Assembly (NCBI RefSeq): GCF_032191465.1
Contig: NZ_JAQOUE010000001.1
Location: forward strand, 2,821,501 to 2,885,500
Reading direction: 5' to 3'
Origin: Candidatus Nitronereus thalassa
Lineage (GTDB): Bacteria > Nitrospirota > Nitrospiria > Nitrospirales > UBA8639
Length of the DNA: 64,000 nucleotides
Numbering within the stretch: the first letter of the stretch is position 1; the number at the start of each line of letters is the position of its first letter. The position numbers and the translations under genes were made by a program. Positions 1,137 through 24,458 of the stretch are shown here, piece after piece. A model generated the notes under the pieces. It made no database searches. It saw only the letters and a program-made list of their open reading frames with translations, and was not told where the DNA came from.

Positions 1137-1153
1137 TTGGAATATGAATTGCT
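1137..1153 (+). promoter_or_regulatory. sigma-54 (-24/-12) promoter of nxrA1
   Basis: TTGGAATATGAATTGCT matches the consensus TTGGCACG-N4-TTGCW at TTGG and TTGCT, with the obligatory GG and GC exactly 10 bases apart. The predicted start near 1164 gives a leader of about 190 nt. The bare GG-N10-GC core is common by chance. The extended match, the adjacent activator gene and the equivalent site before nxrA2 raise confidence. Confidence 0.65.
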
Positions 1154-1351: not shown

Positions 1352-4300
1352 ATGTTTCTTTCTAGAAGACAGTTTTTAAAGGTCACCACGGGGACGGTGG
1401 CTGCCGTGGCGTTGGCCGATAAGGCGTTGGCGTTGACGGCGTTACAGCCGGTCATCGAAGTGGGCAATCCACTGGGTGAGTATCCGGACCGTGCCTGGGA
1501 GCGGGTGTACCACGATCAGTACCGCTATGATTCATCCTTTACCTGGTGTTGTTCCCCGAACGATACCCATGCCTGCCGGATTCGGGCCTTCGTCCGGAAC
1601 GGCGTGGTGATGCGGGTGGAGCAAAACTACGATCACCAAACCTATGAAGATCTCTACGGCAATCGCGGCACGTTCGCGCACAATCCTCGGATGTGCTTGA
1701 AGGGCTACACGATGCACCGACGGGTGTATGGCCCGTATCGGTTGAAGGGCCCGTTGATGCGGCGTGGCTGGAAAGCCTGGATGGATGCGGGGAGCCCCGA
1801 ATTCACGCCAGACGTGATGAGCAAATATAAATTCAATGCCCGATATCTCGATGACATGTTGCGGGTGAGTTGGGATACGGCGTTTACCTATATCGCCAAG
1901 GCGATGTTGATCATTGCCGAGCGGTACAGTGGCGAAGCCGGGGCCCGTCGGTTGCGGGAGCAAGGCTATCCCCCGGAAATGATTGAAATGTCCAAAGGCT
2001 CTGGTGTCCGGTGTATGAAGTTCCGGGCTGGGATGCCGATTTTGGGCGTGATCGGGAAGATGGGGATCACCCGGATGAACGGAGGGTGCGGGGCATTGCT
2101 CGACACCTACATTCGGAAAGTCCAACCCAACCAAGCTCAGGGTGGCCGGTATTGGTCGAACTATACCTGGCATGGGGACCAAAACCCAGCCCATCCGTTC
2201 TGGTGCGGTATCCAGGCCTCTGACGTCGACATGAACGACATGCGGTTTTCGAAGTTGAATACCAGCTGGGGGAAGAACTTCGTAGAAAACAAGATGCCGG
2301 AAGCCCACTGGAAGCTGGAGAGCATTGAGCGGGGTGCCCGGTGTGTGGTCATTACTCCGGAATACAATCCCACGGCGTATCGGGCGGATTACTGGATTCC
2401 GGTGCGACCGGCCACGGATGGAGCGTTATTCTTAGGGGCGTGTAAAATCATCTTTGATGAAAACATGCATGACCATGATTTCTGTTCGGCGTATACCGAT
2501 ATGCCCATCTTGGTGCGGTCGGATACGTTGCAATATTTAGATCCTCGGGATGTGATCCAAGGGTATCAGTTGCCAGATTTCTCGAAGACCTATTCAGGGA
2601 AAGTGCAAACCTTGGACCCCGCCAAAATTGCCCGCCTCGGTGGGTTTATGGTCTGGGATATTAATAAAGGTGCGGCGGTGCCGATTCATCGGGAATTGGT
2701 GGGCTGGCATTTCCGGAATAGCGGTATTGAACCGGCGATGACCGGGTCCTATCGGGTGAAGTTATTGAATGGGCGTGAAGTGGACGTGTTGCCAGTGTTC
2801 CAAATGTATCAAGCGCATTTGCAGGATTACGATTTGGACACGGTGCATCAGATCAACCGGGCCCCGAAGGACTTGATCGTCCGCTGGGCACGGGATAGTG
2901 GGACGGTCAAGCCGGCCGCCATTCATAACGGGGAAGGCACGAACCACTATTTCCATCAAACGATTATTGCTCGCGGAGCCGCGATGGTGTTGATCATCAC
3001 GGGGAACGTCGGGAAATTCGGCACCGGGCAGCATACCTGGGCCGGAAACTACAAAGCGGGGATTTGGAATGCCACGCCATGGGGCGGTGGTGGTCTTGGG
3101 ACCCATACCGCAGAAAATCCCTTCAAAATCACCTTGGACCCCAATGCGCATGGAAAAGAAATCTATGTGCGTGGGTATTACTATGGTGAGGAAGTCGCGT
3201 ACTGGAACCATGGGGATACGGCGTTGATTGTGAACACGCCGAAGTATGGACGCCGGGTATTTACCGGAAAGACCCATATGCCCACTCCGAGTAAGCTACG
3301 GTGGGTGGCCAACGTGAACGTGTTGAACAACGCCAAACATCACTATGACATGGTGAAAAACGTGGATCCGCACATCGAGATGTTAGTCAATCAGGATGTG
3401 GAAATGACGTCAGACGTCAACCACAACGATGTGTCCATGGCGGTCAATACCTGGATGGAATTTACCTATCCCGAACACACCGCGACCGTGTCGAATCCGT
3501 GGTTCCAAGTGTGGAAGGGTGGCATTCGGCCTCTCTATGATACTCGGAATGACATCGACACCGTGGCGGGTGTCGCCGCGAAGTTGACGGAAATGACGGG
3601 CGATCGTCGATTCCGGGATTACTTCAAGTTCGTGTATGACAATCGGGTCGATGTGTATTTGCAGCGGTTGTTGGATGCGAGCTCGACGGCCTATGGCTAC
3701 AGCGTGGATACCATGCTGAAGTCGGAAAAAGGCTGGATGGTGATGAGCCGGACCTATCCCCGGCAGCCATTCTGGGAAGAAACCAACGAATCCAAGCCCC
3801 AATGGACGCGGACCGGTCGGTATGAAAACTACCGCATCGAGCCGGAAGCCATTGAGTATGGGGAAAACTTCATTTCGCATCGGGAAGGGACGGAAGCCAC
3901 GCCCTATCTGCCCAATGCGATCATGACGACCAACCCGTATGTGCGGCCGGATGACTACGGGATTCCCATCACGGCTCAGCATCATGATGATAAAACGGTG
4001 CGGAACATTGCGTTGCCGTGGGCGGAAATCAAACGGTACTCCAACCCACTCTGGGAAAAAGGGTATCAGTTCTATTGTGTGACGCCGAAGACGCGGCATC
4101 GGGTGCACAGTCAATGGTCCGTCAATGACTGGGTGCAGATGTATGAATCCAACTTCGGGGATGCGTATCGGATGGATAAACGGACGCCGGGTGTGGGTGA
4201 ACATCAATTGCATGTGAATCCGCAAGCGGCTAAAGACCGGGGTATCAACGACGGGGACTATGTCTACGTCGATGGGAACCCAGTGGATCGTCCATATCGT

Positions 4301-4789
4301 GGGTGGAAGCCCTCAGATCCGTACTACAAAGTGGCACGGTTGATGATTCGGGCGAAGTACAATCCTGCATACCCGTACCATGTCACGATGGCGAAACATG
4401 CGCCGTTTGTGTCCACTGCGAAATCGGTGAAGGGGCATGAAACGCGGCCAGACGGACGCGCGATTGCGATGGATACGGGATATCAATCCAACTTCCGGTA
4501 TGGGGCCCAACAGTCCTTTACCCGGGATTGGTTGATGCCCATGCATCAGTTAGACTCGTTGCCCGGCAAACATGCCGTGGCATGGAAGTTTAAATTCGGG
4601 TACCAAGTGGATAACCATGCGGTCAATACCGTGCCGAAAGAATGTCTGATGCGTATGACCAAAGCGGAAGACGGCGGGATCGGCGGTCGCGGACCCTGGG
4701 AGCCAGTCCGAACCGGGTTTACGCCTGGCCAGGAAAATGAGTTCATGATCAAGTGGCTCAAAGGCGACCACATTAAGATCAAGGTATAA
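1352..4789 (+). CDS. nxrA: nitrite oxidoreductase alpha subunit, copy 1
   Basis: Catalytic molybdenum bis-MGD subunit of nitrite oxidoreductase, oxidising nitrite to nitrate. 1145 residues, the usual length for Nitrospira NxrA. A twin-arginine signal (SRRQFLK, residues 4-10, then an Ala/Val-rich stretch ending near residue 27) indicates periplasmic export with folded cofactor. The N-terminal Fe-S region has Cys66, Cys67 and Cys75 (WCCSPNDTHAC). The start is fixed by AAGGAGG at 1337-1343. Downstream come a hairpin, a receiver-domain gene and nxrB. Residues from about 827 to 1003 are encoded by a tract of 530 identical bases shared with copy 2. The gamma subunit (NxrC) is not in the window. Confidence 0.97.
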   Translation: MFLSRRQFLKVTTGTVAAVALADKALALTALQPVIEVGNPLGEYPDRAWERVYHDQYRYDSSFTWCCSPNDTHACRIRAFVRNGVVMRVEQNYDHQTYEDLYGNRGTFAHNPRMCLKGYTMHRRVYGPYRLKGPLMRRGWKAWMDAGSPEFTPDVMSKYKFNARYLDDMLRVSWDTAFTYIAKAMLIIAERYSGEAGARRLREQGYPPEMIEMSKGSGVRCMKFRAGMPILGVIGKMGITRMNGGCGALLDTYIRKVQPNQAQGGRYWSNYTWHGDQNPAHPFWCGIQASDVDMNDMRFSKLNTSWGKNFVENKMPEAHWKLESIERGARCVVITPEYNPTAYRADYWIPVRPATDGALFLGACKIIFDENMHDHDFCSAYTDMPILVRSDTLQYLDPRDVIQGYQLPDFSKTYSGKVQTLDPAKIARLGGFMVWDINKGAAVPIHRELVGWHFRNSGIEPAMTGSYRVKLLNGREVDVLPVFQMYQAHLQDYDLDTVHQINRAPKDLIVRWARDSGTVKPAAIHNGEGTNHYFHQTIIARGAAMVLIITGNVGKFGTGQHTWAGNYKAGIWNATPWGGGGLGTHTAENPFKITLDPNAHGKEIYVRGYYYGEEVAYWNHGDTALIVNTPKYGRRVFTGKTHMPTPSKLRWVANVNVLNNAKHHYDMVKNVDPHIEMLVNQDVEMTSDVNHNDVSMAVNTWMEFTYPEHTATVSNPWFQVWKGGIRPLYDTRNDIDTVAGVAAKLTEMTGDRRFRDYFKFVYDNRVDVYLQRLLDASSTAYGYSVDTMLKSEKGWMVMSRTYPRQPFWEETNESKPQWTRTGRYENYRIEPEAIEYGENFISHREGTEATPYLPNAIMTTNPYVRPDDYGIPITAQHHDDKTVRNIALPWAEIKRYSNPLWEKGYQFYCVTPKTRHRVHSQWSVNDWVQMYESNFGDAYRMDKRTPGVGEHQLHVNPQAAKDRGINDGDYVYVDGNPVDRPYRGWKPSDPYYKVARLMIRAKYNPAYPYHVTMAKHAPFVSTAKSVKGHETRPDGRAIAMDTGYQSNFRYGAQQSFTRDWLMPMHQLDSLPGKHAVAWKFKFGYQVDNHAVNTVPKECLMRMTKAEDGGIGGRGPWEPVRTGFTPGQENEFMIKWLKGDHIKIKV
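3830..4359 (+). repeat. identical tract shared with nxrA2 (gene conversion)
   Basis: 530 bases identical to 23499-24028 inside two nxrA genes that otherwise differ at many synonymous and some non-synonymous positions. The boundaries are sharp: 3829 is c against t, and 4360 is c against t. Confidence 0.9.
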
Positions 4790-4892: not shown

Positions 4893-5288
4893 ATGAGCGA
4901 CGATGGGTATCGCCCTTTAATTTTTGTTGTTGATGATAACGAAGTTGTACGGAAAAGTATCGTTAAACGGCTTTTCCGAGAGAACTTTGTGGTTAAGGGT
5001 TTTGAGTCAGGAGAAAAGGTTTTAGAAGCTCTTGATTTTGAAATGCCTGATCTCGTGTTTTTAGACATTAAAATGCCAAAACTTAATGGTCTAGAGACGG
5101 TCAAGGCAATGAACAAGAAGGGGATGATGACACCTGTCGTCTTTTTAACGGCTCATAGAGAACTCGTGGATATGTCAAAGATCAAATATAAAGGGATCAT
5201 TTCATTAGTAACCAAATCCTTGGAATTAGAAGACGTTGTATCGGTGGCCAAAGAAGCGATCACTAATCGACGATCTTTAACCTTTTGA
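4893..5288 (+). CDS. CheY-like receiver protein between nxrA1 and nxrB1
   Basis: A stand-alone response-regulator receiver domain of 131 residues without an output domain. All phosphorylation residues are present: acidic pair Asp14/Asp15 (VVDDN), phospho-acceptor Asp58 (VFLDIKMP), Thr86 (FLTAH) and Lys108 (VTKSLE; the usual Pro after Lys is Ser). It could signal by protein-protein contact, for example with the neighbouring sigma-54 activator or a kinase elsewhere (inference). It lies between the post-nxrA1 hairpin and nxrB1, 13 bp upstream of nxrB1. No good ribosome-binding site precedes the ATG. From base 5220 on it is identical to copy 2. Confidence 0.9.
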   Translation: MSDDGYRPLIFVVDDNEVVRKSIVKRLFRENFVVKGFESGEKVLEALDFEMPDLVFLDIKMPKLNGLETVKAMNKKGMMTPVVFLTAHRELVDMSKIKYKGIISLVTKSLELEDVVSVAKEAITNRRSLTF

Positions 5289-6437
5289 AACGGAGGAAAT
5301 CATGCCAGAAGTATATAATTGGCAATTAGGACGGAAGATGCTGTATCCGTATGAGGAACGGCATCCGAAGTGGCAGTTTGCCTTTGTGTTCAATATCAAT
5401 CGGTGTTTGGCCTGTCAGACCTGTTCCATGGCCGACAAGTCGACTTGGTTGTTCTCCAAAGGCCAGGAATACATGTGGTGGAACAATGTGGAAACCAAGC
5501 CGTACGGGGGCTATCCACAGTTCTACGATGTGAAAATCACGCAGTTGATCGAGCAAGTCAATCCCGGCGGACAAGTCTGGAACGTCCGTGTGGGTCGCAA
5601 ACACCATGCGCCCTATGGCGTGTTCGAAGGAATGACCATTTTCGATGCGGGTGCCAAAGTTGGGCAAGCGGCCATCGGCTACATTCCTACAGACCAAGAA
5701 TGGCGGTTTGTGAATATTTATGAAGACACGGCGACGTCGATGCGGGCCATTGTCGAAGGCATTGATAAAACCGGGTTTACCAAAGAAGAACCCTGGAAAA
5801 TGCAAGGCAGCAGCTTGCCGGAGCATGAAACCTACTTCTTCTATCTCCAACGGATTTGTAACCACTGTACGTATCCGGGCTGTTTAGCCGCCTGTCCAAG
5901 AAAGGCCATCTACAAGCGGCCTGAAGACGGGATCGTGTTGATCGACCAAAACCGGTGTCGTGGGTACAAGAAGTGCGTGGAGCAATGCCCATTCAAGAAG
6001 CCCATGTATCGTGGAACGACTCGGGTGACCGAGAAGTGCATTGCGTGTTACCCCCGGGTGGAGGGTAAAGATCCTCTCACGGGTGGGGAGCCGATGGAAA
6101 CGCGATGTATGGCCGCGTGCGTGGGGAAGATTCGCTTACAGAACCTCGTCAAGATTGGCGAAGATGGGCTGTGGGCGGAAGATCGCTGGAACCCACTGTA
6201 TTACACCATTCGGGTGGAACAAGTGGCGTTACCGTTGTATCCCCAATGGGGAACAGAGCCGAATGGGTTTTATATCCCACCCCGGCAAGCACCTCGGGGG
6301 TACATCCGGCAGATGTTTGGGCCGGGCGTGGATGCGGCGATTGAGAAGTATTTGGTGCCGAGCCGGGAATTGTTAGCGGTGCTCCAATTGTGGAGAGCCA
6401 GCCAACAAATCATCTTCCGGTATGACGTGATTCCTGG
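5220..6437 (+). repeat. identical tract shared with second nxrB locus
   Basis: 1218 bases identical to 24890-26107. The tract covers the last 69 bases of the receiver gene and most of nxrB. Outside it the receiver genes diverge strongly, and the last about 150 bp of nxrB carry synonymous differences only. Recent gene conversion is the simplest reading. Confidence 0.92.
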
Positions 6438-6591
6438 CCCGCTCGTCTTTGAGACCCAGATTCACGGACGTCGGTTCCAAATGTATAACGACACCGTGTT
6501 AGGCTTTAACAAGTCTGGCAAGGAAGCCGTACGGCAGCAGGTGGAAGAGCCAATTTACATTCGGCCGGCCGAACGCGTCACCTGGTTGTAG
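5302..6591 (+). CDS. nxrB: nitrite oxidoreductase beta subunit, copy 1
   Basis: Electron-transfer subunit with four Fe-S clusters, 429 residues, homologous to NarH. Cysteine groups: Cys35/38/41 (CLACQTC), Cys186/189/194/198 (CNHCTYPGCLAAC), Cys219/225/229 (CRGYKKCVEQC) and Cys246/249/269/273. In the third group Tyr222 stands where NarH has the Trp that marks its [3Fe-4S] cluster, so three [4Fe-4S] plus one [3Fe-4S] is likely. There is no signal peptide; export together with the Tat-targeted NxrA is expected. Ribosome-binding site GGAGG lies at 5291-5295. The protein is identical to copy 2 at all 429 positions. A strong terminator follows. Confidence 0.97.
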   Translation: MPEVYNWQLGRKMLYPYEERHPKWQFAFVFNINRCLACQTCSMADKSTWLFSKGQEYMWWNNVETKPYGGYPQFYDVKITQLIEQVNPGGQVWNVRVGRKHHAPYGVFEGMTIFDAGAKVGQAAIGYIPTDQEWRFVNIYEDTATSMRAIVEGIDKTGFTKEEPWKMQGSSLPEHETYFFYLQRICNHCTYPGCLAACPRKAIYKRPEDGIVLIDQNRCRGYKKCVEQCPFKKPMYRGTTRVTEKCIACYPRVEGKDPLTGGEPMETRCMAACVGKIRLQNLVKIGEDGLWAEDRWNPLYYTIRVEQVALPLYPQWGTEPNGFYIPPRQAPRGYIRQMFGPGVDAAIEKYLVPSRELLAVLQLWRASQQIIFRYDVIPGPLVFETQIHGRRFQMYNDTVLGFNKSGKEAVRQQVEEPIYIRPAERVTWL

Positions 6592-7147: not shown

Positions 7148-7810
7148 TCATCTCAAAAGGGCTGGAGTCGTAGTTTTCGCTTCCCAATCAGCTTGAAACT
7201 TTCCAAGTCCAATATCGGTCAGCGGGTGCCTAATGATTTGCTGAAAAACCGTAAAGGGTATCGTGCAAATATGTCCACCGAGCAACGCTGATTCCAACAC
7301 ATGTTGAGGATGTCGCACGCTGGCTACCAACACTTGCGTTGGATACTCATATTTTTCAAAGATTACGAGGATCTGACGGATAAGTTCCATCCCATGGCTG
7401 CTAATATCGTCAAGGCGACCGATGAACGGGGAGACACACCAGGCGCCAGCCTTTGCGGCTAAAATAGCCTGGGTTGGTGAAAAACAGAGGGTGACATTTA
7501 CCAAAATTCCTTCGCTCGATAATCTTCTGGTTGCCTTGAGACCCTCTGGTGTAAGGGGACATTTTACGACAATGTTTTTATGAATTTTGGCTAATTCTTT
7601 TCCTTCCTTCACCATAGCCTCAGCTTCAAGACTGACAACTTCTGCGCTGATTGGACCATTGACAAGTTTGCAAATTTCATACAGCAGTTCTCGAAAATCT
7701 CTACCCTCCTTCGCTATGAGAGAGGGGTTAGTGGTCACGCCATCCAAGACTCCAAGACTTGCGGCTTCTATTATCTCACTAATGTTTCCCGTATCAAGAT
7801 ACAGTTTCAT
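7148..7810 (-). CDS. transaldolase / fructose-6-phosphate aldolase family
   Basis: Class I aldolase of the small transaldolase subfamily (about 220 residues; classical transaldolases exceed 300). Motifs: LYLDTGNI with Asp6, [10 protein letters not shown] near residues 23-32, and VVKCPLT with Schiff-base Lys83. The C-terminal region, [12 protein letters not shown], is typical of the family. The reaction is either dihydroxyacetone transfer (transaldolase, pentose phosphate pathway) or fructose-6-phosphate cleavage; sequence alone does not decide. It is flanked by the two small zinc-ribbon genes and shares the minus strand with the nirK block. Confidence 0.88.
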
Positions 7811-8186: not shown

Positions 8187-9194
8187 TCAGTGTTTCTTTG
8201 TTGCCGTCATTGGAGAGCTCGCCCTTCCGATTTTATACGGTGTTAAGTTTTGAACAAAGGGCATTAATGCCAGACGCTTAGCGTCATCTTTAACTTCAAG
8301 AAGCGCAATCGCCCCGCGTAATGCATCAGTCAAGGAATGGGTCACAATGGGGTAGATGCCCGCTTGATCAACGACCACATCCAGTATGGCTCCTCCCGCG
8401 GGGCCGATCACAAATGTTTGAACACCTTGGAGGCGATTCGCCGGATTCCCGCTTTCCCATACGTCGTCCCATATTTCGGCAATGGGGTGAAGCGCAGAAA
8501 AATTATTAGGCCCGCCATTCACGAAAAAAAACCTGACCCGTTCCCCAGGTTTAGCTTCGAGAAAACTTCCTCCTGCAGAAGCATGTACAGGATCATATTT
8601 AAAGATTCCCCCATTAAACACGACGTGATCGTACCGACGATCGAAAAATGCTTGCACATCGTCAGGGTCCTTGAGATACAGTTCTGTTTGTACCAGCACA
8701 TATTCTCGATCAGGCTTTGGTAGCGCATGTGAATCTTTAGGATCAACGATCACGGCACCAACCATACCCCGCGCCAGGTGCTGAATCATGGGAAATGCCC
8801 CGCAATGATACGCAAAGACTCCAGGTCGTTTTGCCTTCCAGACATATTCTAATGCTTCCCCGGGATTAATCTCCCGGTAATTGTCGAGAAAATTGGTTTC
8901 AGCCGCATGAAAGTCCATTGAATGAGGGCGACTATTTTCCTTGGCGTTGGTGAGGATGAAATGAACCTCATCCCCTTCGGTCACACGCACAACGGGACCT
9001 GGAAATTGCCCATTAAAAGTCCATGCTTTGTACTTCGTTCCTTTGCCGTCGATTTCAACTTCAGTTTCAATGGCGGTTAATTCCACTTTGACGGTCTTTG
9101 CTAGTGCAGGAGAGATGAAGGGGCTCATTTGTAATAGTCCCAAAATGATCAATCCCAAGATTGGTACGGGCCGTAAAGTTTGCATTCGCATCAT
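8187..9194 (-). CDS. nirK: copper-containing nitrite reductase
   Basis: Periplasmic reductase of nitrite to nitric oxide, 335 residues, two cupredoxin domains. A signal peptide ends near Ala30-Leu-Ala. Copper ligands follow NirK order. Type 1: His91, Cys131, His139, Met144 (HSMDFH ... YHCGAFPMIQHLARGM). Type 2: His96, His130, His286. The catalytic pair Asp94 and His236 is also present (ALHPIAEIWDD). AAAGGA precedes the ATG, and a -24/-12 promoter lies about 120 bp upstream. Known Nitrospira genomes often carry NirK; its role there is unsettled (NO production, redox balancing, or running in reverse). A general two-domain multicopper oxidase is less likely given the complete active-site set. 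Confidence 0.88.
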   Translation of the reverse strand: MMRMQTLRPVPILGLIILGLLQMSPFISPALAKTVKVELTAIETEVEIDGKGTKYKAWTFNGQFPGPVVRVTEGDEVHFILTNAKENSRPHSMDFHAAETNFLDNYREINPGEALEYVWKAKRPGVFAYHCGAFPMIQHLARGMVGAVIVDPKDSHALPKPDREYVLVQTELYLKDPDDVQAFFDRRYDHVVFNGGIFKYDPVHASAGGSFLEAKPGERVRFFFVNGGPNNFSALHPIAEIWDDVWESGNPANRLQGVQTFVIGPAGGAILDVVVDQAGIYPIVTHSLTDALRGAIALLEVKDDAKRLALMPFVQNLTPYKIGRASSPMTATKKH

Positions 9195-9316: not shown

Positions 9317-9333
9317 TGCATGTGGTGTGCCAG
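9317..9333 (-). promoter_or_regulatory. sigma-54 (-24/-12) promoter of nirK
   Basis: On the minus strand CTGGCACACCACATGCA: TGGCAC and TGCA match the consensus and GG and GC are 10 bases apart. Predicted start near 9305, leader about 110 nt to the nirK ATG at 9194. This is the closest match in the window to the TGGCAC half. Confidence 0.68.
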
Positions 9334-9414: not shown

Positions 9415-9433
9415 CCGTGCGGGCCCGCGACGG
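9415..9433. promoter_or_regulatory. dyad at enhancer distance upstream of nirK promoter
   Basis: CCGTGCGGGCCCGCGACGG: palindrome GCGGGCCCGC (9419-9428) extended by CCGT/ACGG with one bulged base. It is 82-100 bp upstream of the nirK -24 element. It could instead be the 3' hairpin of the activator gene ending at 9517. Confidence 0.35.
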
Positions 9434-9516
9434 AGCGTGGTGAGGAAACACACATTCTGTGGTTTTTCGTGGAACTAATGATAAAGGCAATCAAAAAATG
9501 AGTTGGAGAAACTTTA

Positions 9517-11112
9517 TCAGGATTCTAATGTATGGTGGCCTGGCCGTTGCAGTTGTAATTTTTTAATCCGGCTTCGGAGAGTGCTAGGGGCTAATCCAAG
9601 CTGTTTTGCGGCACCGTCCCCACCTTCGATCTGCCAATTGGTTGCAGCCAATGTCTGCAGAATATGTTGACGTTCGACATCCAATAAGTCTGCTGGTGCC
9701 TTTGGAACTGGCGTGGTATTGGAAGGGGTGAGCAGCCGATCTTCAATTCGTAATACCGAGTCATGCGAGAGAATCACTGCCCGCTCAATGACGTTTTCTA
9801 ATTCTCGTATATTTCCTGGCCAGGAATATCGGATAAGTCTACGAAGAGAGTCTTGTTCAATAGTTTCACAAGGTCGCTTGAATTTAATTCGGTAATGCTC
9901 GAGAAAATGCTGCGCCAATTCTGGAATGTCTTCGGGCCTAGATCGAAGCGGAGGAATAGTAATCGGGAAGACATGAATACGATAAAAGAGATCAGCACGA
10001 AAACGCCCCTGTACAATCGCGGTTGATAGATCTGCGTTTGTCGCAGCAATAAGGCGGACATCCACCGGAATAGAATGCTTCCCTCCCACTCGGTCTACTA
10101 AACCATCTTGAATGACCCTTAATAATTTTGCCTGGGTCTCTAACGGCATTTCACCGATCTCATCTAAAAACAACGTTCCGCCGTTGGCTAATTCAAACCG
10201 TCCTTCTCGTTTAGCCTCTGCACCGGTGAAGGCGCCCCGTTCATGTCCGAAGAGTTCACTTTCCACCAAGCCAATAGGGAGTGCCGCACAATTGATTCGC
10301 ACCAATGGTTTATCTTTTCGTGGGCTTTCATCGTGAATGGCCTGTGCCAGGAGTTCCTTCCCTGTGCCAGTCTCTCCCGTGATTAGGACAGTGGCGGAAG
10401 TTGGTGCGACTTCCCGAGCGAGTGCAAGTGCCTCCTGAAAAAGGCGGCTTTTACCCACCATGGGTCCGAACATTTTTGTCTGTTTGAGTTCTTGAACCAG
10501 ATAAGTATTCTCTCGTGCCAATTGCTGGTGTAACCGGCTAATTTCTTCATAGGCTTGGACATGGTCGATGGCGTACGCGATTTGCATGGCGACCTGCGAT
10601 AAAAACTCGAGGTCCTCTGAGCTTGGGTGACCAGCATCGACACTTCCAATATTGAGAATTCCCAAACATTTCTCTTTGACGAGAAGTGGGAAATTGATCA
10701 TTCGGCCTAAACCTTCTTTCACGTACCAGGCATCTTCGAGAAACACTTGCTCGTGCTTGAGATCTGGACGGACATGGAATGTCTTGTGCTCATAGACCCA
10801 TCCCATCCCACTTCCCATTCGTGGGATCACGGAATTTTGTTTCACCACCACTTTAGGGAGATTGGTTGCCACGACATAAAACCGAAATCCATCGGCTTCG
10901 GCGTCATACAGGGTGACACTTGCTCGGGCCCATGGCATGACTTGGTGAATTTGGGCGGTGATGGCTTGCCACAGACTTTTGGTATTACGTTGAGAATTCA
11001 GCTCAATGGCAACTTTGAGCAATGCACGATAGTTGGTTTCGATACGGTTCACAAGAGATTCCTTGATTGGTTCCATAAGGTATATAAGCATATGGATTGT
11101 GGTGATGTCCAT
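9517..11112 (-). CDS. sigma-54-dependent GAF-AAA-Fis activator 2
   Basis: 531 residues. The N-terminal GAF domain (about 30-190) is a likely small-molecule or redox sensor. The AAA+ domain (about 220-455) has [14 protein letters not shown] and [10 protein letters not shown] Fis-type HTH lies at the C-terminus (AAKQLGLAPSTLRSRIKKL). The ATG at 11112 is chosen because AAGG lies just before it. That site sits in the 3' arm of a perfect hairpin (11118-11143), hinting at translational control. It lies between the flavin reductase and nirK, both on the same strand, so nirK and the multicopper oxidase cluster are plausible targets (inference). Closely related to the other two activators. Confidence 0.93.
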   Translation of the reverse strand: MDITTIHMLIYLMEPIKESLVNRIETNYRALLKVAIELNSQRNTKSLWQAITAQIHQVMPWARASVTLYDAEADGFRFYVVATNLPKVVVKQNSVIPRMGSGMGWVYEHKTFHVRPDLKHEQVFLEDAWYVKEGLGRMINFPLLVKEKCLGILNIGSVDAGHPSSEDLEFLSQVAMQIAYAIDHVQAYEEISRLHQQLARENTYLVQELKQTKMFGPMVGKSRLFQEALALAREVAPTSATVLITGETGTGKELLAQAIHDESPRKDKPLVRINCAALPIGLVESELFGHERGAFTGAEAKREGRFELANGGTLFLDEIGEMPLETQAKLLRVIQDGLVDRVGGKHSIPVDVRLIAATNADLSTAIVQGRFRADLFYRIHVFPITIPPLRSRPEDIPELAQHFLEHYRIKFKRPCETIEQDSLRRLIRYSWPGNIRELENVIERAVILSHDSVLRIEDRLLTPSNTTPVPKAPADLLDVERQHILQTLAATNWQIEGGDGAAKQLGLAPSTLRSRIKKLQLQRPGHHTLES

Positions 11113-13101: not shown

Positions 13102-16100
13102 TTATTTAAATCTGACAGACTGAGTTTGGGGTTGGCTCGTCTGGGGTGCTTGTGCTTCTTTCACCTTCGGCATGGCACCGGTTAAAGACAGTAACCGTGT
13201 ATCCCCTTGTGGAAGGACACGGAAGTATCCCCATTGCCCGGATTGAGAATAGGGTAGACGTTGGTTATTCCAGATATAATCTCCCGGGAGACGGTAAGAG
13301 CCTCCTGCCGATGGAATCAGAGCATCAATTACCTCTGATCCCCCGAATTCCACCACGCTGATCAGATCTGCTCCCGGCATGAACGGTTCGATTGGCCATT
13401 CATGTTGTTCCACGCTGAACATGCCGTTCTGTTCACTGCTGGCTCCAAGCACATGGATTCGGACTGGATCACCCGCATGGGCTTCAATGAGTGGGGTGAC
13501 CGGGTCTTGTGGGTCATCCACTTCACACGGTTGGAACATGCGTCCGAGTGTGCAGCCAAGTTCCTCTCGATACAAATAAGGTTCTGAACGGTAGTTGACC
13601 CCGGTGAGTCCGGCGACGTTCTGGACATATGGCATAAAGCTTGTTCCAATGATGTTATCTTCATCTTGGAAAAATAACGCCACGTCCCGATAATTTTGTC
13701 GGTGTTCATTTCCTGAAATGCTTCGATCAATCAGCACGTCGGCCATCCAACTATTTTTCAGCGAAATATCCGCCCCTGTTTTAGGATCACGATAGACTGA
13801 GCCCTTGGGGCCAACAATGATTGCTCCAAACAATCCATTGCGCGGGTTCATCATCATATCGCCCCCATCCCAGACGAGAGAAGTAATTTCTCCGATTGAT
13901 GGATCGGCATAATAGGTGTAGGTCCGGCTCTCTCCGGGGCCAGCCGTTTGGTCACCTGGATTGAACCCGAGATTCACACCCAGGGAGTCCTTCGGGTCAA
14001 AAGACAGGGAAAAAGCAGAGAATGATGCGCGACTCGATTTCATTTTATTCGTAAGATGAATTTTCACGCAGTCACCCACATTGACTCTGAGCGTCAACGG
14101 CATGGGTTGGAACCCTTCGTTGACCTGAGCCATGTCTTCATCCAATACATAGATTTTCCCATGTGGATTTCGAAGCTCGATCTTTCGCTCGAAATCCACT
14201 TCAATGGCTTCGGGCGCCTTCGGATTGAAAGTCATCTCCGGATGATCAAGCGCTGAGACATTGAATGATTTGACCGGAGCATCGTTCGAGCATACAGGCA
14301 AGGGCGGTTTCGGCCCTTCTTGTTGCCCGAAGCCTCGTGGTAATGGTTTCAGATTTTCTTTCATCGTGTCATGTACGCGGATAATACCCCATGACCCTTC
14401 GGACAGTTTTGATGAGCGACCGTTAAAGTATAAATAGTCACCGGGTTGTCTGCGAGGTCCGCCGGCTTCGGGAACTACGAGATCATACCGCTCCGCAATG
14501 CCGACATGGATGGAGTTTTTTCGGTTAGCATCGCCGGCATAGCGTTCGGTCAGGAACGTGTGTCCTGCAACCGTAAAGACATGGGTTTCATTCATGAGCG
14601 ATTCCACTAACCTGAAGACGACCGTGTCTCCGGTGTAGGCTTCCAGTAATGGCGTACTGGGGTCGCCGTGCACGTCACTGCTGAATATTTTGGATGGATC
14701 AGGATTGACTGCCAAACGCTGCGCAATTGGTTCTGCACGAAAATCAATCCCGCTTCCGGTTGTGTGAGTGCCGCCATTCAAGAAGGGCATTGGCGTCATT
14801 TTTAACTTGTCCGGCATTTGAAACGACACGGTTCTCCCGGCTTCTAATGCCACTTCAATCGGTTGGCCAGGAGGATTCCCTGCGGTCACAATGTTCACGG
14901 TGTGAGGCACGGTGTCATGCATTTGGACCGTGAGTTCCCGGAAACTATTGTTGACCCCATAGCCGACAGGTTCGGTCGTATGAATATCGGCGATGGGGCC
15001 AGTGCGAATCGGTTTACCAGTTTGTGGATCATGGTAGGTGGCACCGACTGGTTCGACTAACAAGGAGCAGAATCCACCATGCGGCCAGGTCGTAGCGCCA
15101 AATGCATGGTCGTGGCAAAACACCGTGCCTACGTCCGCGTCTAGCCAAAATCGCTGCCTGACGAATTCCACGGTGACGATGTCATCTTTTGGATGATCGT
15201 GCTCCAAGGGCGAGTGGAACGAGATAGTGTCGCCCTGGATATTTTTGATTCGACGAATCTCATTGCCTTTCACGTTATCCGCGCCTACCAGTAACAAGGT
15301 GTCCTTGTGGTATTGGGCGGCATTCGATACCCGAATGGATTGGGCGCCCTTTTTCACCGGCTCAAGGATGAGCGCGTTCATGGGTACGGGTAGGCCCTTC
15401 TTCACCTCCTTCTCCAACATCGTAAACGGGCGGACGGACTGTTCATAGGACATGCCGGTGATCACGCCGTCGGAGGACTGGGTATCGAATTGTACAAAGT
15501 GGAAATGGGTGTTGATCTTCGAGGATTGGAAATTCGTAAAGTCGTCGTCTTCCCATTCACTTGTGAGCACGTAATCCAAACAATCATATATATTGGCGCG
15601 AAAGACCAATGGATGTTTTAAATCGTTGTTGGCGCGAATGGCTTCCTCTTCTTCGTGCACCACGAAAATTAATGCCTTGGGATCGATTACGGCTTCTTCG
15701 ACGCCCTCTTTCGCTGACATTTCAATGGGTGTTTCAATGAAATGAACGTTGTAGTAGGCCTGCTTTGCATTATCCGGACACAGACTCCATCGTCCATTTT
15801 CTCCTGGTTTTGCCGGTTGCGTTGATGGATTACCGTTGGCATCTCGGCGAATGGGTTCAAGCCATGGCGCCGGGTTATGGTCAGGTGCAAAGGGTACTCG
15901 CTTGCCGAAATGCGGAGACATGTGTGGCCAGGCTAGTTTTCCCGTAAGCGGGTCAAATAACAGGGGGCGCCGCTTCCCTGGAGTCTTCGATGTATACTTA
16001 GGATTTTCAATGGTGCTTTCTTTTTCTGCTAAGGCCGTGATTCCATCCCAGGTCCAATCCCAGACTGAGGCATCATATGCCAAGATTTGTCCTCGTTCGT

Positions 16101-17982
16101 CATCCGTGTGCCCGGGTTGTCCTGGTGTGGGCAATTGCATTGAAACCCAATCTTTTATTGTTACGACCGTGGGATTGGCAGTCCACTGACTTTCGCCTTT
16201 TTCAATAATTTGAAAACGCGAACCGAACCAGTCCAGGGTTTTACCGACGAGTTGATCGGATGTTACGGCGCGTTGCATACGTCCACGCCGATCCGGCAGT
16301 TCTGCCAAGTCGGGCATCACATCGGTATGAAGGGAGTCTTCTTGTAACGTGTTATAGACCCGCCAATACCCCCACATGCCCGCCACATAGTGGTGAGCCA
16401 CGTGACAGTGATAGAGGAAATCCCCTGCCCCCTGTTGACACAAGCCGGACCCGCATTCGGTTTCTAAATCTACCGCTTCGGCCGGCCCGATGACCTCGGT
16501 ATCCACACGATCTGATTTGGTGCGAATCACCGGATACTTTACAGGACCGTTTTTGGCTTTATGCCACAGCGGCATTTCGTCCGTGGCTCGTGGACTCCTT
16601 GCCCACCGAATAGATCCACCGTGAGGATGATGCGAGTGAAAAATTTCAGAGCCACCATGGATGAGCCGCCATTTGGCTGGATCGCCTAAATAACTGCGCG
16701 GGATGGGTGTCGGGGCATCGCCAAATGTATAGGAACTATAGCCTAGAGATTCATCTTCGAATCCGAAATATTCATGCTGGAGATGCATGTAGTTAATTCC
16801 GAACGGCTCACTTCGATAGTTTAAGGCGCGTGCACCAGGACGATAAACGTCGGTAAGAGGATCGCGTTGCGGGAGAAAATCTCCATGTTTGTTTACAGGG
16901 CGAAAGGCTTCATCACCGACTTCATGATAAATCACGACAAATTCTCTATAGTCTGGTCCATGAGCGTTATCGATGATAGCTTGCCATCCGCTTTCCAGAG
17001 TTTCACCCTCATGGTTTTTGACGGCAGGAAGATAAGACGATCCCTTTGGTTCCACGATTAAGGCTCCAAAAAGACCCATGACCGTTAGCTCACGGTCGTT
17101 ACTGTAGCTATGAAACTGACGTCCTCCCTCCTGCGTGTCTGGATGGATGTACCATTCCAAGTCGATGGTTTTTCCTTCTCCAACGACTGCATCGGGATTT
17201 GTTGTGGTCGCTGGTTGTCCTGTAGAGCTCACGATCATGCTTGATCCATGAATCTGAAAACTGACTTCTTCCCCAAATTCCAATTTGTTGCGGAGTGTAA
17301 TTTTTAGGCAATCGCCTTGATTGGCTCGAATGACCAGAGGCTGGATCCAATCAGTCTGCAATCCGTTTGTGACCGAACCTTGATCAAATCCTTCTTTTTC
17401 TCTAGCCGCTGCATTGCGCTGTTCTTCACGCCGAATGTGCTCAATATTGTTTGTGAGGACGTACATGTAGCCTGGATAGTAATCCAGCCATTGATTCAAG
17501 GTTATTTCTACGTTAATCGCGGACACATCAAAATGTCTTATTGGGGCATAGGTCGGGCATCGGCCTGCTGAAGTCGCAACTGGTTGGGTCTCATAATTGG
17601 ATCCCAGCAGGTAATCAGCCCCTCCTGCCCCATATTGATGAAGCATCGACATGGTGTTGTACGACCCGTCGTTTGAATCGGAGGCCAGATCCATCTGCAT
17701 TTGATGGTTCATGCGTTCCATCAAGCGTTGATGTTGTCCATCAACCTTTGCGGCGCGATCGGGGCGGCCTTCAATAGCGTCTTCTAAAACGGTTTGTCCT
17801 TTGAGCTGTTCAACCCACCCTTGAGAAGGTTGAGCAGCAGTGACCATAGGCGGATGAGTTGAATGTGCCCCTTTGCCTTGAATGGCGTCAGATGAAAAAC
17901 TTGAATGTGGGAACAACAGTCCAATGTTCGTGGCTAGACAACATCCTAAAACCACATAGGCTAATTTTTTGAACGTACACAT
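13102..17982 (-). CDS. giant periplasmic multicopper oxidase (MnxG/hephaestin-like)
   Basis: 1626 residues with a signal peptide, made of repeated cupredoxin domains. The four multicopper-oxidase motifs occur in rotated order: FHSHHPHGG (449-456, third motif) and the canonical HCHVAHHYVAGM (525-536, type 1 plus trinuclear ligands) come first; HFH (826-828) and HDH (957-959) come about 300-430 residues later. An insertion at about 863-935 precedes the last motif, and roughly 650 further residues of cupredoxin-like sequence follow. Large oxidases of this kind oxidise Mn(II), Fe(II) or Cu(I); the substrate here is unknown. GAGGAGG lies 8 bases before the ATG. A -24/-12 promoter lies about 65 bp upstream. 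The type 1 copper protein and flavin reductase follow. Confidence 0.88.
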   Translation of the reverse strand: MCTFKKLAYVVLGCCLATNIGLLFPHSSFSSDAIQGKGAHSTHPPMVTAAQPSQGWVEQLKGQTVLEDAIEGRPDRAAKVDGQHQRLMERMNHQMQMDLASDSNDGSYNTMSMLHQYGAGGADYLLGSNYETQPVATSAGRCPTYAPIRHFDVSAINVEITLNQWLDYYPGYMYVLTNNIEHIRREEQRNAAAREKEGFDQGSVTNGLQTDWIQPLVIRANQGDCLKITLRNKLEFGEEVSFQIHGSSMIVSSTGQPATTTNPDAVVGEGKTIDLEWYIHPDTQEGGRQFHSYSNDRELTVMGLFGALIVEPKGSSYLPAVKNHEGETLESGWQAIIDNAHGPDYREFVVIYHEVGDEAFRPVNKHGDFLPQRDPLTDVYRPGARALNYRSEPFGINYMHLQHEYFGFEDESLGYSSYTFGDAPTPIPRSYLGDPAKWRLIHGGSEIFHSHHPHGGSIRWARSPRATDEMPLWHKAKNGPVKYPVIRTKSDRVDTEVIGPAEAVDLETECGSGLCQQGAGDFLYHCHVAHHYVAGMWGYWRVYNTLQEDSLHTDVMPDLAELPDRRGRMQRAVTSDQLVGKTLDWFGSRFQIIEKGESQWTANPTVVTIKDWVSMQLPTPGQPGHTDDERGQILAYDASVWDWTWDGITALAEKESTIENPKYTSKTPGKRRPLLFDPLTGKLAWPHMSPHFGKRVPFAPDHNPAPWLEPIRRDANGNPSTQPAKPGENGRWSLCPDNAKQAYYNVHFIETPIEMSAKEGVEEAVIDPKALIFVVHEEEEAIRANNDLKHPLVFRANIYDCLDYVLTSEWEDDDFTNFQSSKINTHFHFVQFDTQSSDGVITGMSYEQSVRPFTMLEKEVKKGLPVPMNALILEPVKKGAQSIRVSNAAQYHKDTLLLVGADNVKGNEIRRIKNIQGDTISFHSPLEHDHPKDDIVTVEFVRQRFWLDADVGTVFCHDHAFGATTWPHGGFCSLLVEPVGATYHDPQTGKPIRTGPIADIHTTEPVGYGVNNSFRELTVQMHDTVPHTVNIVTAGNPPGQPIEVALEAGRTVSFQMPDKLKMTPMPFLNGGTHTTGSGIDFRAEPIAQRLAVNPDPSKIFSSDVHGDPSTPLLEAYTGDTVVFRLVESLMNETHVFTVAGHTFLTERYAGDANRKNSIHVGIAERYDLVVPEAGGPRRQPGDYLYFNGRSSKLSEGSWGIIRVHDTMKENLKPLPRGFGQQEGPKPPLPVCSNDAPVKSFNVSALDHPEMTFNPKAPEAIEVDFERKIELRNPHGKIYVLDEDMAQVNEGFQPMPLTLRVNVGDCVKIHLTNKMKSSRASFSAFSLSFDPKDSLGVNLGFNPGDQTAGPGESRTYTYYADPSIGEITSLVWDGGDMMMNPRNGLFGAIIVGPKGSVYRDPKTGADISLKNSWMADVLIDRSISGNEHRQNYRDVALFFQDEDNIIGTSFMPYVQNVAGLTGVNYRSEPYLYREELGCTLGRMFQPCEVDDPQDPVTPLIEAHAGDPVRIHVLGASSEQNGMFSVEQHEWPIEPFMPGADLISVVEFGGSEVIDALIPSAGGSYRLPGDYIWNNQRLPYSQSGQWGYFRVLPQGDTRLLSLTGAMPKVKEAQAPQTSQPQTQSVRFK

Positions 17983-18044: not shown

Positions 18045-18061
18045 TGCATACACCAGGCCAG
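18045..18061 (-). promoter_or_regulatory. sigma-54 (-24/-12) promoter of multicopper oxidase
   Basis: Minus strand CTGGCCTGGTGTATGCA: TGGC and TGCA match, GG and GC are 10 bases apart. Predicted start about 50 bases before the ATG at 17982. Confidence 0.55.
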
Positions 18062-18148: not shown

Positions 18149-18178
18149 GAATTGGTCACGAAATGACGTGGCCAATTC
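18149..18178. promoter_or_regulatory. 30-bp dyad at enhancer distance upstream of oxidase promoter
   Basis: GAATTGGTCACG (18149-18160) faces CGTGGCCAATTC (18167-18178): 11 of 12 positions pair, the other is T opposite G, with a 6-base spacer. It lies about 90-115 bp upstream of the oxidase -24 element and fits an activator dimer site. Confidence 0.45.
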
Positions 18179-18741: not shown

Positions 18742-18758
18742 TTGGTCCAGTTTTTGCT
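18742..18758 (+). promoter_or_regulatory. sigma-54 (-24/-12) promoter of activator 3
   Basis: TTGGTCCAGTTTTTGCT: TTGG and TTGCT both match and GG and GC are 10 bases apart. It is about 110 bp before the likely ATG of the activator gene, implying auto-activation or a cascade. The 886-bp gap 17983-18868 thus holds two divergent sigma-54-type promoters and two dyads. Confidence 0.6.
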
Positions 18759-18868
18759 TTACTTAAGAAGTACTCATACATTTTTCGCAAAGACTTTGAA
18801 TAACAGTTTTGAGGTGGCGAAAGAAAATTCAATCAAAGTTTTCCTACGTAGAAATATCGGGGGTGGTC

Positions 18869-20449
18869 ATGCCTTATAAGAGTGGTTCGAATGTCGCGAA
18901 AATTGTAGATTCTCATTTATCTGATATTGGGGTGGTCGAACGGTTTTACCAAACCTTGCTTGAGGTCACGAACATTCTTAATTCTCAGAGAAATACGGAA
19001 AGTTTATGGAAAGCCATTACGGGACACATAAAAAAGGTCATTCCGTGGGAGCGGGCGGGCATTACCCTGTATCACGAAGATATTGATGGCTTTCGCTTTT
19101 ATGCCGTAGAAACAAGTATGCCAACTGTGAAGTTGACATGCGATACGGTGATCCCTCGAGAAGGTAGCGGTTTTGGATGGGTCTATGACCATAAGTCAAT
19201 TCACATTCGAAAATCCCTCCAGCATGAACAGGTGTTTCTTGAGGATCACTATTATTTACAGGAAGGGCTTGGTCGAATGATTAATCTGCCCCTCATTGTT
19301 CGCGATACCTGTTTGGGCACGCTCAATATTGGGAGTGTGGAATCGGGTGACCCTGACCCACAAAGTTTGACATTTTTACGTCAAGTAGCGACCCAAATTG
19401 CCTTTGCAATCGATCAGGTGAAGTCCTACGAAGAAATTAGTCAATTACGAGAACAGTTGGCCAGGGAAAATGCGTATCTGCTCGAGGAAATAAAATTCAA
19501 TCACGATTTTGGAGCCATGATTGGGGCCAGCCAAAAATTTAAAAAGGTTTTAGATTTGGCTCAAGCCGTGGCTAAGACCAACAGTTCTGTTTTGATCACC
19601 GGAGAAACCGGAACCGGCAAGGAGCTCCTGGCTCGCTTTATCCATGAGTTGAGTTCTCGGAAAAATAATCCCTTTGTCAGAATCAATTGTGCCTCACTAC
19701 CGGCAGGCCTTGTGGAAAGTGAATTGTTTGGTCATGAGCGTGGCGCCTTTACCGGCGCAGAGCAATATCGTCCAGGGAAGTTTGAATTGGCCGATAACGG
19801 CACGCTGTTTTTGGACGAAATTGGAGAGATGCCCTTAGAGGCGCAAGCCAAGTTACTGCGAGTCCTTCAGGATGGAATTATCGACCGCGTGGGAAGCAGT
19901 AAACCCCTTTCTGTTGATGTCAGAATTATTGCGGCGACGAATAGTGATCTGAGCAAGTTGATTGCCGAAGGGCGATTTCGCTCAGACCTGTTTTATCGGC
20001 TCCATGTCTTTCCCATTGTTATCCCACCGCTTCGGGAACGTCCTCAGGATATTGCCCTGCTGGCAAGGCATTTTATGGACAAAAATCGTGTGGAGTTTAA
20101 ACGACCCTGTCAGGATATTGATGAGGCCTCACTTGAACGTCTGCTTCAATATTCTTGGCCAGGGAATATTCGTGAACTTAAAAACATTATTGAACGAGTC
20201 ATGATCCTTTCTCGATCTGCTATCCTGCATATTGATAAATCATTGCTGAGCACCAAACAAGTAGGAGGAGACCAGGAGTTTTCCGGGGAACTCAAAGACA
20301 TAGAACGGTCGAGGATTCAACAGGCTTTGGTGCGAAGCGAAGGAAAAATTGAAGGTGCCTTGGGTGCGGCTAAACAATTAGGGCTTCATCCAAGTACTTT
20401 GCGAAGTCGATTAAAAAAGTTAGGGCTAAACCGCCAAGCTATAGCATAA
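18869..20449 (+). CDS. sigma-54-dependent GAF-AAA-Fis activator 3
   Basis: 526 residues from ATG 18869, preceded by GGGGTGG; the frame is also open back to a TTG at 18809. The GAF domain occupies about the first 180 residues. The AAA+ domain has [14 protein letters not shown] and TLFLDEIGE, and a Fis-type HTH ends the protein ([19 protein letters not shown]). It is followed after a long gap by nxrA2 in the same orientation, mirroring activator 1 and nxrA1. It probably drives nxrA2 through the promoter at 20766 (inference). Its own promoter looks sigma-54 dependent too. Confidence 0.94.
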
Positions 20450-20624
20450 GCTTGGTTTCTGTCTCATTGTGTTTCCTGCCTTGAAGGTGTTTTTTACCTT
20501 TCGTTCCCTTCTTTCCATTCTTTATTCATAACCAGGAATTCTCTGCGTTTATCCGACAAAGGGGTAAACCAATAAGATTTCTTCTTCACATATTACTGGA
20601 TTAGTTTTTCAATTTTTTACCATT

Positions 20625-20663
20625 GAAAACTTGAGGAAGGCCTGCGGTATCCCTCGAATTTTC
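20625..20663. promoter_or_regulatory. imperfect dyad upstream of nxrA2 promoter
   Basis: GAAAACTTGAGG (20625-20636) against CCTCGAATTTTC (20652-20663), 10 of 12 positions paired. It is about 105-140 bp upstream of the -24 element. It lacks the TTTCGCGA motif found before nxrA1. Confidence 0.3.
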
Positions 20664-20765
20664 CATGGTTGTGATGTTGTAATACAAGCCACATTCCCCA
20701 CCTTACTTTCAGTTAATTCTAATTTTTCATGAGGTTAACACTCGTCGTTTTTAAATGGGTGTGCT

Positions 20766-20782
20766 TGGGCAACAAATTTGCA
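20766..20782 (+). promoter_or_regulatory. sigma-54 (-24/-12) promoter of nxrA2
   Basis: TGGGCAACAAATTTGCA: GGCA and TTTGCA match the consensus and GG (20768-20769) and GC (20780-20781) are 10 bases apart. Predicted leader about 230 nt to ATG 21021, similar to the about 190-nt leader of copy 1. Confidence 0.63.
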
Positions 20783-21020
20783 CTTCTTGGGAAAGTCCCT
20801 TCTGTGAAGGACGAATGATGACCTCGCACTCATCAGCATTTTGTGCCAATCGATCAGTCGTAGTGGTTAGGGAGTATGTCAAAAGCGAAGTTTAAAAATG
20901 ATTCATGGTGAAGAAGAAAGGAGGCTTAAGAGTCGAGAAACGACGAAAGAAAATTTGGTGTCACCCAATAGGTGTCGATGGGTTGTTCATTAACCCTTTT
21001 TAGGGATGGAGGAAAAAGAA

Positions 21021-24000: not shown

Positions 24001-24458
24001 TGGCACGGTTGATGATTCGGGCGAAGTATAATCCAGCCTTCCCGTACCATGTCACGATGGCCAAGCATGCGCCGTTTGTGTCGACTGCGAAATCGGTGAA
24101 AGGGCATGAAACGCGGCCAGACGGACGCGCGATTGCGACGGATACGGGGTATCAATCGAATTTTCGATACGGGGCTCAACAATCTTTTACGCGGAGTTGG
24201 TTAATGCCTATGCATCAAACGGATTCATTACCAGGAAAGAGTGCGAACAAATGGAAATTCAAGTGGGGTTTTGAAATTGATCATCATGCAGTCAATACAA
24301 CACCAAAGGAATGTTTGATTCGGATTACGAAAGCCGAGGATGGTGGCATTGGTGGCCGCGGTCCCTGGGAGCCAGTCCGATCCGGGTTTACGCCTGGCCA
24401 GGAGAATGAGTTCATGATCAAGTGGCTCAAAGGCGACCACATTAAGATCAAGGTGTAA
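21021..24458 (+). CDS. nxrA: nitrite oxidoreductase alpha subunit, copy 2
   Basis: Second catalytic Mo-bisMGD subunit, 1145 residues like copy 1. The start at 21021 rather than the in-frame ATG at 21006 is supported by GGAGG at 21008-21012 and by alignment with copy 1 (MFLSRRQF). It has a Tat signal SRRQFMK and the same Fe-S cysteines (WCCSPNDTHAC). It differs from copy 1 at scattered positions, for example around DEDLNDMRFCKFN and in the C-terminal KSANKWKFKWGF region, but shares 530 identical bases (23499-24028) plus a near-identical end. Outside that tract it uses more A/T-ending codons than copy 1. A covarying hairpin, receiver gene and nxrB2 follow. Confidence 0.97.
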   Translation: MFLSRRQFMKVSTGAVAVVALADNALALTALQPVIEVGNPLGEYPDRAWERVYHDQYRYDSSFTWCCSPNDTHACRIRAFVRNGIVMRVEQNYDHQTYEDLYGNRGTFAHNPRMCLKGYTMHRRVYGPYRLKGPLIRRGWKAWMDAGSPEFTQDIVTKYKFNARYLDDMLRVGWDTAYTYLAKAMIIIAERYSGEAGARRLREQGYPPEMIEMTKGSGVRCMKFRSGMPVLGIIGKMGVTRMNGGCGALLDTYIRQVKPNQAQGGRYWNNYTWHGDQDPSQPWWNGTQNCDEDLNDMRFCKFNTSWGKNFVENKMPEAHWKLECIERGGRIAVITPEYNPTAYRADYWIPVRPATDGAFFLGAAKAIFDENMQDMDFIQSSTDLPILVRSDTLQYLDPRDVIKDYQFPDLSRSYSGKVQTLKPYEIERLGGFMVWDINQNQAVPIHRELVGWHFKNSGIEPALMGTFRVKLLNGREVDVLPIYQLYQVHLQDYDLDTVHQINRAPKDLIIRWARDMGTVKPAAIHNGEGVCHYFHMTSMGRAAAMTLIITGNIGKFGSGCHTWSGNYKAGIWASTPWAGAGLSVHTGENPFKITTDPNAHGKEIFTRGYYYGEEVGYWNHGDTALIVNTPKYGRRVFTGKTHMPTPSKFRWVANVNILNNSKHHYDMVKNVDPHIETIVHQDIEMTSDVNHADVSFAVNSWMEFTYPEMTATVSNPWMQIWKGGIRPLYDTRNDLDTVAGVAAKLKELTGDRRFRDYFKFVYDNRVDVYVQRLLDAGSTSYGYSADTMLKSEKGWMVMCRTYPRVPLWEEANESKPQWTRSGRLETYRIEPEAIEYGENFISHREGTEATPYLPNAIMTTNPYVRPDDYGIPITAQHHDDKTVRNIALPWAEIKRYSNPLWEKGYQFYCVTPKTRHRVHSQWSVNDWVQMYESNFGDAYRMDKRTPGVGEHQLHVNPQAAKDRGINDGDYVYVDGNPVDRPYRGWKPSDPYYKVARLMIRAKYNPAFPYHVTMAKHAPFVSTAKSVKGHETRPDGRAIATDTGYQSNFRYGAQQSFTRSWLMPMHQTDSLPGKSANKWKFKWGFEIDHHAVNTTPKECLIRITKAEDGGIGGRGPWEPVRSGFTPGQENEFMIKWLKGDHIKIKV
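23499..24028 (+). repeat. identical tract shared with nxrA1 (gene conversion)
   Basis: Partner of 3830-4359. Within nxrA2 this stretch has the G/C-ending codon style of nxrA1, while its flanks do not, which suggests transfer from copy 1 to copy 2 (inference). Confidence 0.9.

Follow-up and report, generated by a model that had tools for sequence, protein, structure and literature searches.

Candidate sigma-54 promoters and enhancers upstream of nxrA in Candidatus Nitronereus thalassa and related nitrite oxidisers

Copy 1 of nxrA in Candidatus Nitronereus thalassa, and probably copy 2, appears to be transcribed from an enhancer-dependent sigma-54 promoter that is served by a GAF activator and IHF and belongs to a shared regulon. 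We put the probability of this joint reading at roughly 0.8. It concerns nitrite oxidoreductase, the enzyme from which nitrite oxidisers, a widespread group, gain their energy. Both copies are located in the window, by which we mean the whole 64,000 nt stretch of DNA that was analysed. The genome (4.0 Mb, 2 contigs) has three nxrA copies, and the third is located elsewhere (G000:C1:1981904-1985338).

Genes of the window

Copy 1 of nxrA (1352-4789, + strand) is followed by nxrB copy 1 (5302-6591, +), which has 4Fe-4S domains, and copy 2 (21021-24458, +) by an nxrB of equal length (24972-26261, +). The start of nxrA copy 2 was set by homology, and an in-frame ATG is also present at 21006. We take both downstream genes to be nxrB from their position. 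Both pairs enclose a gene for a single-domain response regulator (4893-5288 and 24563-24958, both +). The minus strand carries a nirK-like copper nitrite reductase gene (8187-9194; TIGR02376 with E 3.6e-57, under the cut-off of that model), after which a transaldolase gene (7148-7810) follows, and a large multicopper oxidase gene with weak likeness to MnxG (13102-17982).

Sigma-54-like sites upstream of nxrA copies 1 and 2

The initial annotation had proposed sigma-54-type promoters about 200 bp before both nxrA copies. The motifs are present, TTGGAATATGAATTGCT at 1137-1153 and TGGGCAACAAATTTGCA at 20766-20782, both with GG-N10-GC, and the -24/-12 elements are TGGAATATGAATTGCT (1138-1153, +) and GGGCAACAAATTTGCA (20767-20782, +). 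Measured to the homologous ATG codons at 1352 and 21021, the distance is 214 bp for copy 1, which fits the proposal, and 254 bp for copy 2, which agrees with it loosely. Transcription is expected to start near 1164 for copy 1 and near 20793 for copy 2. The extended context TGG-N8-TTGC is found in copy 1, while copy 2 reads GGG and has no T at -26; both sites deviate from the consensus.

Taken alone, both motifs are weak. That the bare core is common by chance had already been pointed out, and GG-N10-GC occurs 454 times in the window versus 473 expected; TGGCACGN4TTGCA with up to three mismatches gives 59 matches versus 55 expected. These counts reveal no enrichment in the window. With a sigma-54 matrix, for which we set the weights by hand and chose the threshold of 8.0 after the scores of the own family were known, copy 1 ranks 9 and copy 2 ranks 21 among the sites of the window (shuffle P for the 400 bp before the gene 0.010 and 0.037, respectively). 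Among the sigma-54-like sites in the window, TGGAACGATTCTTGCA (26779-26794, +) scores best; it is located downstream of nxrB copy 2 and 122 bp ahead of a hydrophobic 30-aa ORF (26901-26993, +; MESMWELTFIVIVMVVGLVLMALFGSGIFA).

The chance frequency of the core and the low ranks would also agree with both motifs being fortuitous and nxrA being transcribed from a sigma-70 type promoter. A simple scan, which covers a single promoter type and leaves this explanation some room, found no sigma-70-like match on the + strand at 936-1351 or 20450-21020. The explanation becomes very unlikely considering that most relatives have the same element at a like distance. It is this conservation that lifts both motifs above the chance level.

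Conservation among nxrA copies of the order

We compared 105 nxrA copies of one order, 45 from the own family and 60 from family f3. The f3 copies were hand-picked among the matches listed, with family f2 left out, and 2 of 47 rows of the own family were excluded, one being a fragment that lacks the gene start and the other a paralogue with 37% identity. A matrix-free search of the 300 bp upstream of nxrA for spaced words (a 3-mer, then a gap and a 4-mer) returned TGG-N8-TTGC as the top word, with a cluster-weighted count of 47.5 of 61. In 20 dinucleotide shuffles the maximum was 15.3 for any word and 3.0 for TGG-N8-TTGC. Among the loci that were long enough, 71 of 98 have the word between -300 and 0, versus 2 of 98 in the control interval from -1000 to -700.

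Absence of the motif in relatives had been named as an observation that would count against the proposal. With the matrix, a site scoring at least 8 between -300 and -100 was detected in 91 of 105 copies (39 of 45 in the own family and 52 of 60 in f3); these 91 include weak matches, and the shuffle P per copy was 0.05 or lower in 34 of 45 and 34 of 60, respectively. The core with GG and GC 10 bp apart, seen in both window copies, is kept in relatives within the TGG...TTGC context. Matrix and matrix-free count together strongly support the view that nxrA has sigma-54-type promoters.

No site was assigned to the remaining 14 of 105 copies. Six of them, all of the own family, form one cluster (L036, L038, L039, L040, L042, L043), in which the upstream gene is alike in length and place; in L036, the one locus read, we take its product to be a cytochrome bd-like protein. 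In genome G028 a sigma-54-like site, GGGCATGGCCCATGCA, is located 63 bp ahead of the frame of the bd-like gene. Read from the sequence, site-less L085 has a LuxR/NarL-type regulator gene upstream and L101 a cytochrome-like gene. An activator gene precedes nxrA in L054. L047 and L086 have matches over 8 outside the interval from -300 to -100 and were counted as site-less; L083, L095 and L096 also belong to this group.

RpoN and IHF

RpoN is encoded by one gene (PF04552 above cut-off). Three genes of the genome belong to the HU/IHF family, one of them over an IHF alpha cut-off and another one bit under that of IHF beta, as judged from the matched pieces only. The second word found in the comparison, TCAA-N4-TTA, is located upstream of the sigma-54 site and fits the IHF consensus. 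Of the 91 copies, 36 have TCAA-N4-TTR between -75 and -14 relative to TGG, where 1.9 would be expected, and 30 have it between -52 and -26 (0.9 expected). In the window, IHF-like words with one mismatch are located at 1099-1109 (+, TTAATGCGTTA, -39 from TGG of copy 1) and at 20727-20737 (+, TCATGAGGTTA, -40 from TGG of copy 2). Alone these words are weak, since with one mismatch allowed chance would already give matches in 13.6 of 91 regions (59 of 91 observed). Written as WATCAANNNNTTR, the IHF-like word is found between enhancer and -24 in many relatives, and with one mismatch in both window copies.

GAF activators and the palindrome YCRCG-N6-CGYGR

As the initial annotation had stated, each motif is preceded by a gene for a sigma-54 activator (bEBP). 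The window contains the 3′ part of bEBP1 (3-935, +), the gene start being beyond the window edge; the whole gene (L002:2786-4435) encodes 549 aa with GAF domain, AAA+ domain with GAFTGA, and Fis-type HTH. The genes for bEBP2 (18809-20449, +) and bEBP3 (9517-11112, -), likewise with GAF, AAA+ and HTH domains, are paralogues, the two products being 64% and 59% identical to bEBP1. The GAFTGA loop is found in all three proteins, and all three score under the cut-offs of the curated NifA, NorR and FhlA models. Sigma-54-like sites are present 66 bp ahead of bEBP2 (TGGTCCAGTTTTTGCT, 18743-18758, +) and 85 bp ahead of bEBP1 (L002:2701-2716, outside the window), which hints at autoregulation. The palindrome YCRCG-N6-CGYGR was not found before the bEBP1 and bEBP2 genes themselves.

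Only three perfect matches to this palindrome occur in the window, and all of them are located 108-115 bp before sigma-54-like sites. Upstream of nxrA copy 1 the perfect candidate enhancer (1023-1038, +) is at -115 from TGG and is accompanied by one with a single mismatch at -146 (992-1007, +). Before nirK the palindrome (9425-9440, -) is at -108 from the TGG of TGGCACACCACATGCA (9317-9332, -), and before the multicopper oxidase gene (18156-18171, -) at -111 from that of TGGCCTGGTGTATGCA (18045-18060, -), a site 78 bp ahead of the oxidase start. All three promoters adjoin paralogous GAF activator genes, the oxidase gene being divergent from bEBP2. When one mismatch is allowed, the palindrome occurs in the window about as often as by chance (21 versus 20 expected). 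The shared palindrome and site suggest that nxrA copy 1, nirK and the oxidase gene are probably members of one regulon, so that nxrA would be linked to nirK. Upstream of copy 2 no such enhancer was found; the best match to YCRCG-N6-CGYGR has two mismatches (P 0.21).

Similar arrangements were found in relatives. In Nitrospira defluvii the order is GAF activator gene, perfect palindrome, site, nxrA; in N. moscoviensis GAF activator gene, perfect palindrome and site are followed by nirK. The perfect palindrome also precedes the bd-like gene of G028, as well as nxrA in L082 and L091, where the upstream gene product shares 53-59% identity with the GAF activators in its C-terminal part. Weaker palindromes with one mismatch precede nirK of N. 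japonica (P 0.09) and a transaldolase-like gene of G028 (P 0.05); the latter gene (locus L171) lies behind the orthologue of bEBP3 and its sigma-54-like site. Several regions have two palindromes 31-34 bp apart. Six of 105 nxrA regions contain a perfect palindrome (W1, L082, L084, L088, L091, L094; 0.2 expected), a count to be read with the fact that this palindrome, like the second one described below, was picked by eye from the very sequences in which it was then counted. In L084, L088 and L094 the 1 kb upstream contains no gene for a related activator, which speaks against a strict pairing of palindrome and activator.

A composite pattern (palindrome, 88-102 bp, YGG-N9-TGCW) has five matches in this genome and none in the control. 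Four represent the promoters of nxrA copy 1, nirK and the oxidase gene, as the palindrome before nirK is matched in either direction, and the fifth is at C1:531268. Since the pattern was fitted to the window sites, it describes more than it tests. Matches occur in 8 of 11 genomes, with none in G002, G028 and G029; in GC-rich genomes the additional matches are near the control level and probably due to chance (8 in G110, control 3). The match G047:C5:649918, which had no part in the fit, is located behind a GAF activator gene. A looser pattern did not discriminate (39 in the own genome, control 22; near the control level in GC-rich genomes).

A second palindrome and the third nxrA copy

The pairing with activators, used as an argument in the initial annotation, holds for both window copies but is uncommon elsewhere. 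In the own family a frame with GAFTGA is located within 3.5 kb upstream in only 4 of 45 copies, four of the loci being shorter than 3.5 kb. Many copies without an adjacent activator have another palindrome in common, TGYTWCC-N4-GGWARCA (class I). In 15 such copies of the own family the block reads TGCTACC-N4-GGAAACA, about 101 bp before TGG. With up to two mismatches the palindrome is present in 49 of 105 copies (0.9 expected) and 25 of 61 clusters, and 48 of the 49 have a sigma-54 site. As a bare pattern it shows no enrichment over whole genomes (6 matches in the own genome, control 11); what sets it apart is where it occurs rather than how often. A pooled palindrome search for one enhancer of all copies found none, while splitting the copies by neighbourhood succeeded.

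The third copy (L003) matches this palindrome with one mismatch, compared to five for copy 1 and three for copy 2, and no activator gene is found within 3.5 kb upstream of it. Its promoter would be of the sigma-54 kind too, but the enhancer differs, which suggests that the third copy may depend on another, unlinked activator. The class I activator may be either an NtrX-like or an AtoC-like response regulator.

The scarcity of linked activators could also mean that a single unlinked activator drives all nxrA copies from sigma-54 promoters, while nirK and the oxidase gene are the targets of the GAF activators. This would account for G009 (92% complete), which has only two strong activator matches, both of the response-regulator type, and yet has the nxrA site, and for N. 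moscoviensis and N. japonica, in which GAF activators are located before nirK. However, copy 1, L082, L091 and the N. defluvii copy have the very palindrome found before nirK, and none of the 105 regions combines both enhancer types at the thresholds used. We consider a single activator for all copies quite improbable.

The coding sequence of copy 1 is identical to that of the third copy over the first 1809 nt, whereas the upstream regions look unrelated: aligned globally, the 400 nt ahead of the ATG agree to 48%. Apparently gene conversion stops at the start codon, so that the enzyme stays uniform and the promoters differ. That near-identical copies have different candidate activator sites suggests that they respond to different signals. 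For the order of this genome, one may extend this to enhancer-dependent sigma-54 control of nxrA with a modular code, in which near-identical coding sequences are combined with different enhancers and activators, and a structured leader adds a second level; to us the chances for and against it appear even. TGYTWCC-N4-GGWARCA would then be the older module, used by an unlinked activator, and YCRCG-N6-CGYGR would be used by the GAF activators that also drive nirK and the oxidase gene. If so, the cell would pick among sources of the same enzyme by signal.

Leaders of the own-genus copies (L003-L006) and of the g2 copies share AAAGGAGGTGG; in the window the leader of copy 1 would comprise 1164-1351. 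The leaders sharing this sequence also have two hairpins, one of CCCC/GGGG type after which T often follows, and another that pairs the ribosome site. Attenuation or translational control by these hairpins is possible. A comparison with Rfam at gathering scores was negative for the window, and L003, L021 and L006 remained without a match even up to E 1.

The candidate promoter of copy 2

The link to a sensed signal through the GAF domain of the neighbouring activator, as initially suggested, gains support for copy 1 from the palindromes and the composite pattern, and for copy 2 weakly. A site with G at -26, 254 bp before the ATG, with P 0.037 and no enhancer, might be a chance match, even if copy 1 has a sigma-54 promoter. 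On the other side, nxrA of G023 (L034) is preceded by an activator with 69% identity to bEBP2, and when both upstream regions are aligned without an anchor (48% identity) the best sites fall into the same column, although this is not the best-conserved stretch. A chance match is rather unlikely on balance, and the site of copy 2 probably represents a real sigma-54 promoter.

Proposed mechanism and comparison with known systems

The motifs, their conservation and spacing, and the presence of rpoN and IHF genes are read directly from the DNA; from these we infer binding, the matching of palindrome and activator, the start sites and the signal. RNA polymerase with RpoN would occupy 1138-1153 as a closed complex, and bEBP1 or a paralogue would bind to the palindromes at 992-1007 and 1023-1038. 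IHF would bend the DNA near 1099-1109, and the AAA+ domain would open the promoter once the GAF domain meets its signal. This code of promoter, enhancer and IHF site offers exact bases to test and makes it possible to predict the activator to which each paralogue responds.

For Nitrospira, passages of PMC6606698 and PMC7522533 describe sigma-54-dependent regulators adjacent to nxrAB; these are papers which both cite Lucker 2010 and Koch 2015, and activators next to nxrA were proposed there to control the paralogues differently. Activator genes adjoining nxrA are seen here as well. In contrast, those passages contain no promoter, enhancer or IHF sites, which are located here and compared over 105 copies. 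According to the transcriptome section of PMC6606698, nxrA_5 is the most expressed copy of N. moscoviensis (13,027 RPKM) and nxrA_1 has no regulator nearby. The N. moscoviensis (G110) copy taken by order for nxrA_5 has TGGCACAGGGCTTGTA about 149 bp before the homologous ATG, behind a response-regulator-like activator gene, and its -12 GC reads GT; the copy taken for nxrA_1 has TGGTTTGGTTATTGCG at -198. A GAF activator of this species, 67% identical to bEBP1, is encoded behind nxrB and before nirK. By order we took it for the NifA-like NITMOv2_4531, which holds rank 14 of the transcriptome and is placed upstream of nxrAB in the part of PMC6606698 concerned; the assignment is uncertain, since on the strand read here the gene is downstream of nxrAB.

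Word searches in the open literature found no published map of promoters, enhancers or IHF sites for the nxrA genes of Nitrospira; such sites may have been mentioned earlier, by Koch 2015 or Lucker 2010. The activators beside nxr with their suggested role, and the enhancer-dependent sigma-54 promoter as a kind, were known before; the use of sigma-54 promoters at nxrA with two enhancer types seems to be new. With NifA-, NorR- and FhlA-type systems, bEBP1-3 share the GAF domain, the AAA+ domain with GAFTGA and the Fis-type HTH. The promoters are also alike, with enhancer, IHF-like word and -24/-12 element in the usual order, whereas the palindromes and target sets known for those systems differ from the ones described here.
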